DNA of 64,000 nucleotides from Pseudomonadota bacterium (lineage in GTDB: Bacteria; Desulfobacterota; Binatia; Binatales; Binataceae): assembly GCA_021323675.1 (NCBI GenBank), contig JAJPKP010000027.1:62001-126000 (forward strand), read 5' to 3'. Position numbers and translations under genes: made by a program. The notes beneath the pieces were generated by a model. The model had not been told where the DNA came from and searched no databases. It was given only the letters and a program-made list of their open reading frames with translations. Below, piece by piece: positions 40,450 to 46,364 of this stretch (positions are counted from its first letter, which is position 1; each line of letters begins with the position of its first letter).

Positions 40450-41214
40450 ATGCAGGCGGCATTCGGCAGCGGCTCGCTGTGGGGTGTGATTACTCAATTT
40501 GCCGACGGGTCGATACCGGCGACGCCCACGATCGCAAAGGTCGGCACACTTCAGGAGTGGTCGCTGAATGTCCAATGGGACATCCGGCAGCTCTACGGAG
40601 GCTTCGATTCTCCGGTCGCGATCGGGCGCGGCAAGGCGAAGTATCCGCTCAAGTTCAAATTCGCGCAGCTCAACGCGAACCTGCTTCAGGCGTTCGTGTT
40701 CGGAGCGCCCGGACAGCCCGTCACGGGTGAAACCCTGATGGCGGAAGATGAGCAGCACTCGGTCCCCAGCTCCGCGCCCTACAACCTTACGATCTCTCCG
40801 CCGAATTCGGGGACTTTCGCAGCCGACTGGGGCGTGCGCTACGCGGCGAGCGGCCTCACTCTTACCAAGGTCGCGAGCGCGCCGTCCGCGGGACAATACA
40901 GCGTGAGCGGCGGAGTTTACACGTTTGCTTCCGCCGACGCGAACGCGGCGATGCTGGTGTCGTACGAGTACGCGCTCGCGGGTGGCTACACGATCCAGGT
41001 CAGCAGACAATTGCTCGGTTCGCTCCCGGCCTTCAAGTTCTTCGGCAAGGTCCTGTTCTCGGGCAAACAGTTGACCGTGAAGATGAACCAGGTGGTCGCG
41101 TCGAAACTCTCGATGCAGACGAAGATCGACGATTTCATGATTCCTGAAATTGACGCGGAGGCCTTCGCCGACGCATCGGGAACCGTGATGTATCTGTCGA
41201 TGGTCGAGCTGTAG
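40450..41214 (+). CDS. Major tail tube-like protein
   Basis: Position before tail chaperones; LQEWSLNVQWDIRQLYGGFDSPVAIGRGKAKYPLKFKFAQLNANLLQ. Confidence 0.75.
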   Translation: MQAAFGSGSLWGVITQFADGSIPATPTIAKVGTLQEWSLNVQWDIRQLYGGFDSPVAIGRGKAKYPLKFKFAQLNANLLQAFVFGAPGQPVTGETLMAEDEQHSVPSSAPYNLTISPPNSGTFAADWGVRYAASGLTLTKVASAPSAGQYSVSGGVYTFASADANAAMLVSYEYALAGGYTIQVSRQLLGSLPAFKFFGKVLFSGKQLTVKMNQVVASKLSMQTKIDDFMIPEIDAEAFADASGTVMYLSMVEL

Positions 41215-41236: not shown

Positions 41237-41635
41237 ATGGGCTGGTACACCGGGAAAATCCGAGAGCCGTTGATCGAAGGCGAAACGGTTGCGCTGGCGG
41301 GTCAGCCGTTCGTTGTCGCGCCGTTCAACATTCGGCGGATGCGGATGACGGCGGGTGCGCGCTCGATACTGCGCGAAGTCGGCGCGTCCAAACGGCCGGC
41401 GGACTCAAACGAGACGATCGCCGCGATTACCGAAATTGCGGCGGTTGCATTGTCCGCAAACTATCCCGACATCACCGCGGCGATGCTTGACGAGCATGAA
41501 GCTCTGCGGCCCGCCGATTTGCGGGCGGTCCTGGAAGCGCTGGGCAAGGCGAATGGCGGAGGAGACGAACCGCCGGGGGAAGCGAAAGCCCCGCGGAGCG
41601 GGGCATCGAACGCACAGCCGACTGGGATCGCGTAG
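41237..41635 (+). CDS. Tail assembly chaperone, N-terminal (G/GTA gp10-like) ORF
   Basis: FNIRRMRMTAGARSILREVG...ITAAMLDEHEALRPADLRAVLEALGKANG; immediately before the frameshift candidate. Confidence 0.7.
   Translation: MGWYTGKIREPLIEGETVALAGQPFVVAPFNIRRMRMTAGARSILREVGASKRPADSNETIAAITEIAAVALSANYPDITAAMLDEHEALRPADLRAVLEALGKANGGGDEPPGEAKAPRSGASNAQPTGIA
41575..41604 (+). promoter_or_regulatory. Candidate -1 programmed ribosomal frameshift element
   Basis: G-run CCG GGG GAA (41573-41581), 6-nt spacer, then perfect GCCCCG-CGGAG-CGGGGC hairpin (41588-41604). Confidence 0.6.
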
Positions 41636-41877
41636 TGGCGCATTTGTGCGTGTCGCTGGGCTGGAGCTGGGAGGAGACCGAGGACCTGACGATGCCGCAG
41701 TTGCGCGCATTGCGCGATTACTTTGACGACCATCCGCCGCTGCATCTGGTGGTAGCGGCCGCATTGAACGTTAAGTCCCGCCGCCGCGCCCAGGAACGGG
41801 AAGCAAGTCGGGCGACGATTGCCGCGCTCGATGCGCTGCTCGCGCAATCGGCCGCGGGCGGCGGACGAGTTCGATAA
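41635..41877 (+). CDS. Tail assembly chaperone, downstream -1 frame (T/gp10.1-like) ORF; probably expressed as a G-T fusion
   Basis: Frame open well upstream of its only GTG start: ERGIERTADWDRVVAHLCVSLGWSWEETEDLTMPQLRALRDYFDDHPP. Confidence 0.7.
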   Translation: MAHLCVSLGWSWEETEDLTMPQLRALRDYFDDHPPLHLVVAAALNVKSRRRAQEREASRATIAALDALLAQSAAGGGRVR

Positions 41878-41889
41878 GCGAGGCGCCAC

Positions 41890-43002
41890 GTGAGCAACAC
41901 CGAAATGATCGCGCGGGTGACGGCGGATACCTCCGGCTTCGCCGACGGGATGCGGCAAGCGGCCGCGATTGCGCGCGACAGCGCTGGAGACATCGAGGCC
42001 GCACTGAGTGCCCTTTCGGAGAACGGTGCGGCAAGTTTGGGCGATCTTTCTTCCGTCGCGCAGCGCAGCGCGCAGAACGTAAATTCCAGCCTGGCGGCGA
42101 TGGCCGAAGCGGGCCGCGGCGCTTCGGAATCGATAGCCGGAGCACTGGCTTCGGCAAGCGAAGCGGGAGGGCGTTTTTTTGATGCGTGGATGCGCGGCGG
42201 CCGCAATCTGGGGCTTGAATTTGCCGAAACTGCGCGCTCATTGCTCTCCGAGTTCGCCCGCACCGGATTGCAGGATCTTGTTATCGGGGGCAGTAGGGGC
42301 AGTCTTGGAGGGGCGGTCTTTGGGACGCGCGGATCGGGCGGACTGTATGGGCTCGCCGCCGGCGCGTTTCAGGAGACCGCGCTCGAACAAGCGTTGGATC
42401 GCGCATGGCGCGGCATCTCGGGCACCGTCAGCGAAGTGTTCAGCGGAGCCTTTCACGCTCTCGCAGGTTCTTTCACGAGCCTGTTTGGAAACGCATTTTC
42501 GGGAGCGGCGGCCGGCGCCATTTCAAATTCCGCCGCCGCGACCGTGAGCGAAGCCGCGACGGCGGCGGAGACTACCGCATTGACGGCCAACACCGCCGCA
42601 ATCGGAGTCCTCTCGGCTGCGATGGCGGCCAACACGATCGCGGTTGAGCAGCTTGTGGCGGTAACGGAATTGGACGCAGCCACGAGTCTGCCTGGTTTCG
42701 AAGGCGGCGGAATTGTTCCTTCGGCCGCACGCGGGATGGTGCTGGGCGGCCGCGCCTCGCTCGCAATCCTGCATCCTCGCGAGATGGTCCTGCCGGCGCC
42801 GCTCAGCGAAGGAGTCCAGTCGGCGATCACCGCGGGCCGGTTCGGCGAATCGTCCGGCGGCGACGTGCATATCCATATCGGAAGCATCCAGGGCGGCAAC
42901 CCGACCGACCTTCGGCGCGAGCTGGAGCGATTCGCCGATCGAATCGGCGACATCGTCCGCGATCAGCATCGCGCCAACCGCTTTCTGAAGACTCGCTATT
43001 GA
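41890..43002 (+). CDS. Short tail tape-measure protein (370 aa)
   Basis: Ala/Gly-rich with C-terminal FEGGGIVPSAARGMVLGGRASLAILHPREMVLPAPLSEGV typical of tape measures. Confidence 0.82.
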   Translation: MSNTEMIARVTADTSGFADGMRQAAAIARDSAGDIEAALSALSENGAASLGDLSSVAQRSAQNVNSSLAAMAEAGRGASESIAGALASASEAGGRFFDAWMRGGRNLGLEFAETARSLLSEFARTGLQDLVIGGSRGSLGGAVFGTRGSGGLYGLAAGAFQETALEQALDRAWRGISGTVSEVFSGAFHALAGSFTSLFGNAFSGAAAGAISNSAAATVSEAATAAETTALTANTAAIGVLSAAMAANTIAVEQLVAVTELDAATSLPGFEGGGIVPSAARGMVLGGRASLAILHPREMVLPAPLSEGVQSAITAGRFGESSGGDVHIHIGSIQGGNPTDLRRELERFADRIGDIVRDQHRANRFLKTRY

Positions 43003-44105: not shown

Positions 44106-46364
44106 GTGAAAATTGACACTTTTCGCTCGAAGATATCGTCGTTTGGCCCTCTCGGATACTGGCGGCTCAACGATGCTTCGCATATCGGGGCCGCAGATTC
44201 GTCTGGGTTCGGAAATGATGGGCAATACAGCTCGACCGCGATTGCGCTGCTGCAGGGCCTCGCCCCGGGCATCTACGGCGCAAGCCTGCCGGGCAGCGAT
44301 ACGGCATATGTGACGCTGCCAAATGTGGACGCCTTTCGAATTCCGATTCTGAGCGGCCTGGTTACGTTCAAGGATCAGGGTACCCCGGCGAACGGCCGCC
44401 TCGTTTACTTCACGGGCGAAAGCACCGCGGGGCCGGGATGGCAGGTGATGCGCGCGGCCAGCGGCAACGGCGCGGTTCTGGCGATCGATACGAGCGCGCA
44501 ACATGCTCAGACGCTGAATTTTCCCGGTGCTCCGTTCGACGGCAATCGGCACACGCTGGCGTGGGGATTCGACGGCGCTTATCTGTACGCCTCGACGGAT
44601 TTTTCATCCTGGGCGACCGCGCCTTACAGTGTCGGCGGCGGACCGGTCCCCAATCCAAGCGCTTCGTTCCTGATCGGAAAGGCGGCGATCGCGGGGCCGG
44701 GATATTACGCAAAGGCGATTATCTCAGACCTTGCGATTTTTCCTTACGTCCTGCAGGCCGCTCAGCTCGATGGGCTTTCGGCCGCGCTCGGGTCGGGAAA
44801 CGATGCGCTGGAATACACGCTGCTGACCGCGCGCGAACTTACGGTCGCGGATTTGTTCAGCATCGAACTTGCCGATGGCACGGTTCTCAACTGGACGAGC
44901 TTCGATTGCGATGTGGTGGCCGGAGCGACCAGGTATTCTTCGATGGGTCCGCGGCTCAAGCGCGGAGCAATCAGATGGAAGCGCGGCGTCGAGGCGTCGC
45001 CGCTGGAATTGAGAGTCGCCGGAGCTTCGACCGATGTCGGGGATCTTGGCCTGACCGTCGCACAAGCGATCACCGCGGGCTATTTCAACGGCGCCAAAGT
45101 CACCGTCAGCCGGGTGTATAACCCTGCGCGCACGGCTGACGGGTCATACTCGGCGCTGTCGGCGCTGATGCTGTTTCAGGGATGGGTTGGAAAGATCGAG
45201 CAGGGGCGCCCGTACGCAAGAATCACCGTCAATTCGCTGTTCGAGCGGATGAATTTGCAGTGGCCGTTCACGATGCTCCAGCCGTCGTGCCGATGGACGC
45301 TGTTCGACAGCGGATGCTCGCTGGATCAGGCCGGATTTGCCGTCAGCGGGGCGGTGCAATCCGGCTCGACCGCGTCGAAGATTGCGCATGGCCTGACGAA
45401 CGCAACCGGCTACTTCGATCAGGGGCGCATCAAGTTCACCAGCGGACCGAACAACGGGATCTGGCGCGTGGTGCAATCCGGCATCGCGGCGGGGGCGGCC
45501 GCGAGCTACCAACAGACCGTGCTCAACGACAAGCCGGCGGGCTACTGGCGCTTTGGCGACCTGGCCGGATCGTCAACCGTCGCCGACCTCAGCGGCAACG
45601 GTTACCACGGCACGGTGCGCGGCGGCGTTGCGCTCGGGCAGCCGGGAGCTCTGGCGGGAGATTCGACTACCTGCGCGCTGTTCGACGGAAGCAGCGGCTA
45701 CATCACGCTTCCGATCCCGAAGCCGGGCGCCTTCGCGCAGGGAATCAGCTTCGAGTTCTGGTTCAAACTTCCGCCGGGATCGGCGCCTGCGCAGCCGGCG
45801 GGAATTTTCGACACCGCTACGGGAGATCCTTTCACGCTGCGCAACTTCAATCCGGGCGGCGGCTCCCCGGCGTTCGAATGGAAGAGCAAGGGCCAGCCGA
45901 TGGTCGGCTTCAATCAGCCGGCCGCCAACGTCTGGGTGCATGTGGTGGTGACCTATCGCGGCCAGAACGCGATCGATCTCTACTATAATGGACAGCTCTA
46001 CAGTTCAGCGACCGCGCAGGGCAACGGCCAGATAGCCTGGAAGAACCCGATCACGATCGGAAACATCAACGGCGGCGCGAACGGATGGTTCAAAGGCTAT
46101 CTGCAGGAATTCGCGATCTATCCCTATGCGATGTCGGCCGACCAGCCGCTTGCGCACTACGATGCGGGCGTTACGCCGCCCAGCGCGAGCGGCAGCGGAA
46201 TATTTGTCCTGACGCAGGCGCTGCCGTATGCGCCGGCGGCGGGCGACACGTTCGTCGTTTACCCGGGGTGCGACAAATCGCAGCGTACCTGCCGGCTCAA
46301 GTTCAACAACCTCGCCAATTTTGGCGGCTTTCCGTACGTGCCCGCGCCGGAGACCGCGGCATGA
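44106..46364 (+). CDS. DUF2163/phage_BR0599 (GTA gp13-like) tail hub protein with LamG-like domains
   Basis: DUF2163 core (LLTARELTVADLFSIELADGTVLNWTSFDCDV) and C-terminal GDTFVVYPGCDKSQRTCRLKFNNLANFGGFPYVPAPE, with LamG-like GYWRL/GYWRF segments. Confidence 0.87.
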   Translation: MKIDTFRSKISSFGPLGYWRLNDASHIGAADSSGFGNDGQYSSTAIALLQGLAPGIYGASLPGSDTAYVTLPNVDAFRIPILSGLVTFKDQGTPANGRLVYFTGESTAGPGWQVMRAASGNGAVLAIDTSAQHAQTLNFPGAPFDGNRHTLAWGFDGAYLYASTDFSSWATAPYSVGGGPVPNPSASFLIGKAAIAGPGYYAKAIISDLAIFPYVLQAAQLDGLSAALGSGNDALEYTLLTARELTVADLFSIELADGTVLNWTSFDCDVVAGATRYSSMGPRLKRGAIRWKRGVEASPLELRVAGASTDVGDLGLTVAQAITAGYFNGAKVTVSRVYNPARTADGSYSALSALMLFQGWVGKIEQGRPYARITVNSLFERMNLQWPFTMLQPSCRWTLFDSGCSLDQAGFAVSGAVQSGSTASKIAHGLTNATGYFDQGRIKFTSGPNNGIWRVVQSGIAAGAAASYQQTVLNDKPAGYWRFGDLAGSSTVADLSGNGYHGTVRGGVALGQPGALAGDSTTCALFDGSSGYITLPIPKPGAFAQGISFEFWFKLPPGSAPAQPAGIFDTATGDPFTLRNFNPGGGSPAFEWKSKGQPMVGFNQPAANVWVHVVVTYRGQNAIDLYYNGQLYSSATAQGNGQIAWKNPITIGNINGGANGWFKGYLQEFAIYPYAMSADQPLAHYDAGVTPPSASGSGIFVLTQALPYAPAAGDTFVVYPGCDKSQRTCRLKFNNLANFGGFPYVPAPETAA

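Follow-up and report, generated by a model that had tools for sequence, protein, structure and literature searches.

A probable tail assembly chaperone locus with a conserved GGGGGAA signal for probable −1 frameshifting in a Binatota prophage

In tailed phages, the G/GT frameshift is described as widely conserved (Xu, Hendrix and Duda 2004, in the account given by the review PMC5009743). In phage lambda, gpG and gpGT are encoded by two overlapping ORFs beside the tape measure gene, and a −1 shift shortly before the upstream ORF terminates yields a longer fusion in addition to the short product. The locus described here has the same layout, and the same two products are predicted. However, lambda shifts at GGGAAAG, whereas our locus carries GGGGGAA followed by a strong hairpin at 6 nt, and neither of its ORFs has detectable similarity to the named chaperone families of Pfam and NCBIfam. 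GGGGGAA itself was the sole sequence of the 'fivetwo' motif that PRFect found in about a thousand SEA-PHAGES joins (PMC10885494). In the literature on Binatota prophages, no paper bearing on this locus was found. Judging from sequence comparison, ORF1 and ORF2 very probably encode tail assembly chaperones of the G/GT type, with −1 programmed ribosomal frameshifting as the mode of expression.

Gene order and the two reading frames

The analyzed stretch of 64,000 nt (the window) is part of a 216-kb contig in a draft genome. Its genes follow a siphovirus-type prophage module order: portal, prohead protease, head-tail adaptor, tail terminator, tube-like protein, ORF1/ORF2, tape-measure-like protein, DUF2460 and GTA-like hub proteins. 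The relevant features are as follows.

40450–41214, + strand: gene for a probable major tail (tube) protein of 254 aa (phrog_8234, E 3e-49, listed with unknown function in PHROGs)
41237–41635, + strand: ORF1, short (G-like) chaperone candidate, 132 aa, stop TAG 41633–41635 (frame analysis; phrog_7947, E 1.3e-6)
41558–41564, + strand: SD-like GGAGGAG, 10 nt upstream of the G5 run, possible accessory stimulator (from sequence)
41575–41581, + strand: slippery heptamer G_GGG_GAA (0-frame GGG GAA; −1 frame GGG GGA), in frame in 35/42 loci
41581–41877, + strand: ORF2, T-like part read in the −1 frame, 98 aa past the junction, stop 41875–41877 (phrog_8018, E 4e-4)
41588–41604, + strand: putative stimulatory hairpin with 7 bp and a GGA loop, 6 nt downstream of the heptamer (same geometry and a compensatory double change in the nearest relative, L002)
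41635–41637, + strand: GTG overlapping the ORF1 stop (TAGTG), 3' of the conserved DW, the only near-N-terminal start candidate for a free ORF2
41890–43002, + strand: ORF3, probable short tape measure protein, 370 aa, directly after ORF2

The product of the gene at 40450–41214 is probably the tube protein, given its place after the head-tail adaptor (phrog_442) and the tail terminator (phrog_4204, a weak match). ORF3 resembles the gene following ORF2 in 13 relatives, and in Brevundimonas phages this gene is annotated as tape measure. ORF1 and ORF2 are thus situated between a presumed tube gene and a presumed tape measure gene, which is the placement of tail assembly chaperones. With only 370 aa, compared with 880–990 aa in Sphingomonas-type relatives, ORF3 predicts a very short tail. 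Further downstream, the baseplate-hub-type protein (44106–46364; phiJL001 Gp84 / BR0599 domains) bears an inserted Laminin_G_3 lectin-like domain, which possibly serves host-surface binding. The IMG/VR contig IMGVR_UViG_3300027706_000274 (L007/L008) encodes an ORF1 and a tube protein 100% identical to those of the window, so this prophage has also been obtained in the form of a viral contig.

Re-reading of the sequence confirmed the coordinates, letters and frames that a first-pass annotation had given for ORF1, ORF2 and the G5 run. The ORF1 frame is open from 41189, with ATG 41237 as the start and GTG 41231 as an alternative. The −1 frame is free of stops from 41500 to 41874 and its translation reads GGSESPAERGIERTADWDRVVAHLC. 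Both ORFs belong to PHROG families of unknown function: phrog_7947 is matched by ORF1 of 29/34 relatives, and phrog_8018 by ORF2 of 21/30. In the window, the phrog_8018 match covers the −1 translation from residue 25 onwards, a point 8 residues past a conserved W, as expected if gene callers began ORF2 too late.

The predicted model of ORF1 (pLDDT 80) lies near several BFVD structures named tail assembly chaperone, as well as the frameshift protein G of Xylella phage Sano, but the E values are mostly 0.01–0.6 and therefore weak. This modeled resemblance supports a chaperone role of ORF1 without proving it; position and two-product layout are the stronger arguments. No match was obtained in a PDB fold search with the ORF1 model or a viral fold search with the ORF2 model, and PDB sequence searches with the ORF1 and ORF2 profiles gave nothing meaningful.

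Conservation of and selection on the −1 frame

Searching phage records by tblastn with ORF1 and ORF2 gave no match. Since the upstream tube gene is better conserved, relatives were collected mainly through it, in searches covering family genomes, phylum genomes, phage records, genome contigs and IMG/VR contigs. After dropping loci more than 85% alike over ORF1+ORF2, 42 non-redundant loci were retained, the window included, with ORF1 identities to the window of 17–43%. Comparative reasoning of this kind was recently applied to Pakpunavirus relatives and their GTTTTT site (PMC12846349).

In all 42 loci, ORF2 occupies the −1 frame relative to ORF1 and extends 42–115 codons beyond the ORF1 stop. 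The aligned −1 translations form one domain, which opens with a conserved (D)W motif. The first-pass annotation would have been contradicted by homologues whose ORF2 has its own start and whose upstream frame is not conserved; the opposite was observed, as 37/42 loci possess no ATG, GTG or TTG between the shift site and the W of this motif. An ORF2 that overlaps ORF1 in the −1 frame and lacks a start of its own is thus kept in relatives, in line with a chaperone-type layout.

A free ORF2 could nevertheless arise by termination-reinitiation at GTG 41635, possibly besides the fusion. The TAGTG overlap is present in the sequence, and it is a common coupling geometry. However, the conserved W codon lies 10 nt before the ORF1 stop, 4 codons upstream of this GTG, and relatives have no GTG at this place; their first start after the W is mostly at least 17 codons into the domain. 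Reinitiation also does not account for the conserved G_GGG_GAA or for the selection on the −1 frame before the ORF1 stop described below, and we regard it as very improbable. GTG 41635 had been taken for the only GTG of ORF2, which was also said to lack an ATG; in fact, TTG 41644, GTG 41650 and ATG 41692 follow, all inside the conserved domain.

In Acinetobacter and Brevundimonas phage records (L022, 4269–4852; L023, 4269–4843; L024, 4283–4977; L025, 4286–4980), the two parts are annotated as separate hypothetical proteins, with the ORF2 start placed 3' of the ORF1 stop. These split ORFs are probably one frameshifted gene in each record. In the same way, phrog_7947 and phrog_8018, so far listed as unknown, gain a probable function as one chaperone gene split by annotation.

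To follow the frame under selection, divergence by codon position was computed over 14 loci sharing the same spacing, which are relatives rather than close variants of the window. Upstream of the site, divergence at ORF1 positions 1/2/3 is 0.10/0.04/0.37, so that the ORF1 frame is constrained. The linker after the site is flat (0.36/0.38/0.38), while the last 54 nt before the ORF1 stop give 0.05/0.36/0.09, the pattern of a constrained −1 frame. This shift across the site indicates that selection passes from one frame to the other while still inside ORF1; in these 14 loci, the short product shows no sign of constraint on its 0-frame tail. Frames, signal, their conservation and this selection in relatives are direct observations.

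The draft genome that contains the window consists of 87 contigs, and an accidental frame break, through sequencing error or decay of a single gene, had to be considered. The two-frame layout in 42/42 loci, deposited phage genomes among them, refutes this reading, and the IMG/VR contig carries an identical ORF1; an error is hardly credible.

The slippery site and its downstream hairpin

The G5 run occupies 41575–41579, where the 0-frame codons are CCG GGG GAA GCG AAA. An in-frame G_GGG_GAA is present in 35/42 ORF1s, although the 35 sites are not 35 independent events because the loci are related. It is always found close to the C-terminus, at a distance of 6 to 144 nt from the stop. In the other long ORFs of the same loci, the heptamer occurs once in 55,917 codons. 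Codon choice at Gly-Glu dipeptides shows the same bias, with G_GGG_GAA used at 35/74 of them in ORF1 versus 1/217 in other ORFs of these loci. The heptamer is kept in separate lineages (window/L002, L028, L104, L015, L021, L030, L034 and L077), in the Acinetobacter phages, in a Sphingomonas group and in a large L072-type group. In the Acinetobacter phages, ORF1 ends with it as its last two sense codons, and only 13–25 nt of open −1 frame precede the stop, leaving hardly any room for an alternative explanation.

Other sequences stand in for the heptamer in some loci: A_AAA_AAA TAA in the AT-rich L102, an A-run in L033, and G_GGG_GAG in L024 and L069. Two loci whose close kin bear GGGGGAA have a changed A-site codon, namely L040 (3383–3775), with G_GGG_GCA and Gly-Ala instead of the conserved Gly-Glu, and L080 (3500–3940), with Gly-Lys. 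Both are natural variants bearing on the A-site requirement. No G- or A-run was found before the ORF1 stop in two same-family relatives, L013 (reverse complement, 2317–2754) and L014 (reverse complement, 2296–2736), which retain a −1 ORF2 with a PDW motif and have CGC CCT ACR at the corresponding place.

At the heptamer, the P-site tRNA can re-pair fully in the −1 frame (GGG to GGG). The YYY identity of the canonical X_XXY_YYZ is absent, and GAA to GGA requires a G:U pair at the middle position. The first-pass annotation had called the site possibly atypical, as it differs from the lambda heptamer and its A-site codon re-pairs poorly. However, GGGGGAA is not atypical: it is known from the SEA-PHAGES joins (PMC10885494) and was proposed for corynephage phi16 (PMC5506516), and re-pairing of tRNA-Glu on GGA through a G:U pair has been proposed (PMC10885494); the A-site thus need not be a problem.

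As the site is a homopolymer run, transcriptional slippage on the five Gs could also give mixed mRNAs, part of them encoding the fusion without any ribosomal slippage. Five Gs are short for polymerase slippage, though, and a ribosomal signal fits with the two As that follow them, with the 6-nt spacer and with the hairpin seen in many relatives. While this route to fusions is a known alternative (reviewed in PMC5009743), we consider it very improbable here, even more so than reinitiation.

The putative hairpin has stem arms at 41588–41594 and 41598–41604. The first-pass annotation had placed it correctly, at 41588–41604 and 6 nt after GGGGGAA, but had read GCCCCG-CGGAG-CGGGGC as 6 bp with a 5-base loop; the stem has 7 bp and a GGA triloop. 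Such structures generally begin 5–8 nt downstream of the slippery sequence (PMC4066793). Taken alone, the window's hairpin does not stand out (z −1.15 to −1.33); 0.5% of window positions are followed, at such a distance, by a perfect 6-bp stem made only of G and C. Among the relatives, a continuous stem of at least 7 bp starting 4–9 nt downstream is found in 21/40 loci versus 3.0 expected from dinucleotide shuffles, and such a stem follows 7.3% of other ORF1 codon positions.

Comparison with L002 revealed the same 6-nt spacer, 7 bp and triloop, with arms GCCCCGC/GCGGGGC in the window and GGCCCGC/GCGGGCC in L002. Pair 2 is changed from C-G to G-C on both sides, a compensatory double change. In a larger group of loci, GCCCCCGGG-N5-CCCGGGGGC follows at this same distance, and one of its pairs is altered on both sides; the covariation test in this group is modest on its own because most pairs never vary. 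Other groups have longer, bulged hairpins, some relatives lack a clear one, and in the Acinetobacter loci no hairpin of note was found downstream of the site. Conservation of site, frame and hairpin together is far beyond chance among the relatives. The comparison of homologous loci suggested as a check was thereby carried out (G-run in 35/42, ORF2 frame in 42/42, stems of at least 7 bp in 21/40) and, combined with the −1 selection in 14 relatives, supports the initial proposal of a −1 programmed frameshift fusing two tail-chaperone ORFs.

An SD-like match of at least 5 nt is found upstream in 6/35 relatives against a background of 4.6%. As a general stimulator, this element was rejected; since the enrichment is weak, GGAGGAG is treated here as accessory, a possible local helper.

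Proposed mechanism and comparison with known systems

From these features, we infer slippage, its rate, a two-tRNA mechanism and the chaperone role. Most ribosomes would read ORF1 to its TAG and release the 132-aa G-like protein. While tRNA-Gly occupies GGG and tRNA-Glu occupies GAA, a minority may be held up by the GC hairpin that starts 6 nt further on, with GGAGGAG 10 nt upstream perhaps assisting. Both tRNAs would then slip back one base onto GGG GGA, whereby Gly would re-pair perfectly and Glu through one G:U pair. Translation in the −1 frame would run to 41874 and give a fusion whose length, by the coordinates, is 213 aa (114 + 1 + 98) with either of two possible junctions. Should both tRNAs slip once Glu has been decoded, as the two-tRNA mechanism predicts, the junction would read PPG-E-SESP; if the P-site tRNA slips first, it would read PPG-G-SESP, which corresponds to the G-S-E-S of the first-pass annotation. 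On the model of lambda gpG/gpGT, the ORF1 part, common to both products, would bind the tape measure protein, and the tube protein would be recruited by the ORF2 part.

Rather speculatively, GGGGGAA and a hairpin about 6 nt downstream might be a distinct, old frameshift cassette kept across phages of several bacterial phyla. Slippage would then proceed mainly via the P-site Gly, with the A-site Glu held by the middle G:U pair, and L013 and L014 would shift by a further, undescribed signal. We consider this extension doubtful, though less improbable than the alternatives weighed above. The natural set of GGGGGAA sites with its variants offers material for testing non-canonical A-site re-pairing.

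Among described systems, the RcGTA-like tail module of alphaproteobacterial gene transfer agents shares the DUF2460, phiJL001 Gp84 / BR0599 and Rcc01698 domains with the downstream genes here, while likeness to its chaperone family, Phage_TAC_11 (GTA gp10), was seen in one relative only (E 0.0011). The AH2 G/G-T pair likewise precedes the tape measure gene and gives two products, but it uses AAAAAAG rather than GGGGGAA, and against the ORF1 and ORF2 profiles it showed no detectable sequence homology. In corynephage phi16 (PMC5506516), GGGGGAA is preceded by an SD-like GAGG and followed by a structure, in genes proposed to act in tail assembly; this is a single-genome prediction with an H-type pseudoknot, whereas a plain hairpin is predicted here. 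The 'fivetwo' joins of SEA-PHAGES actinobacteriophages (PMC10885494) have the same heptamer, the same −1 direction and likewise concern tail chaperone genes. They belong to other phages and hosts, and the likeness noted here is one of site, direction and gene type. In contrast to that report, GGGGGAA is conserved here, together with a hairpin, in a tail-gene family of Gram-negative hosts. G/GT frameshifting and GGGGGAA were already known, while the family assignment is new, as is the broad conservation of the signal, which extends over phages of Binatota, Alphaproteobacteria, Acinetobacter and others.
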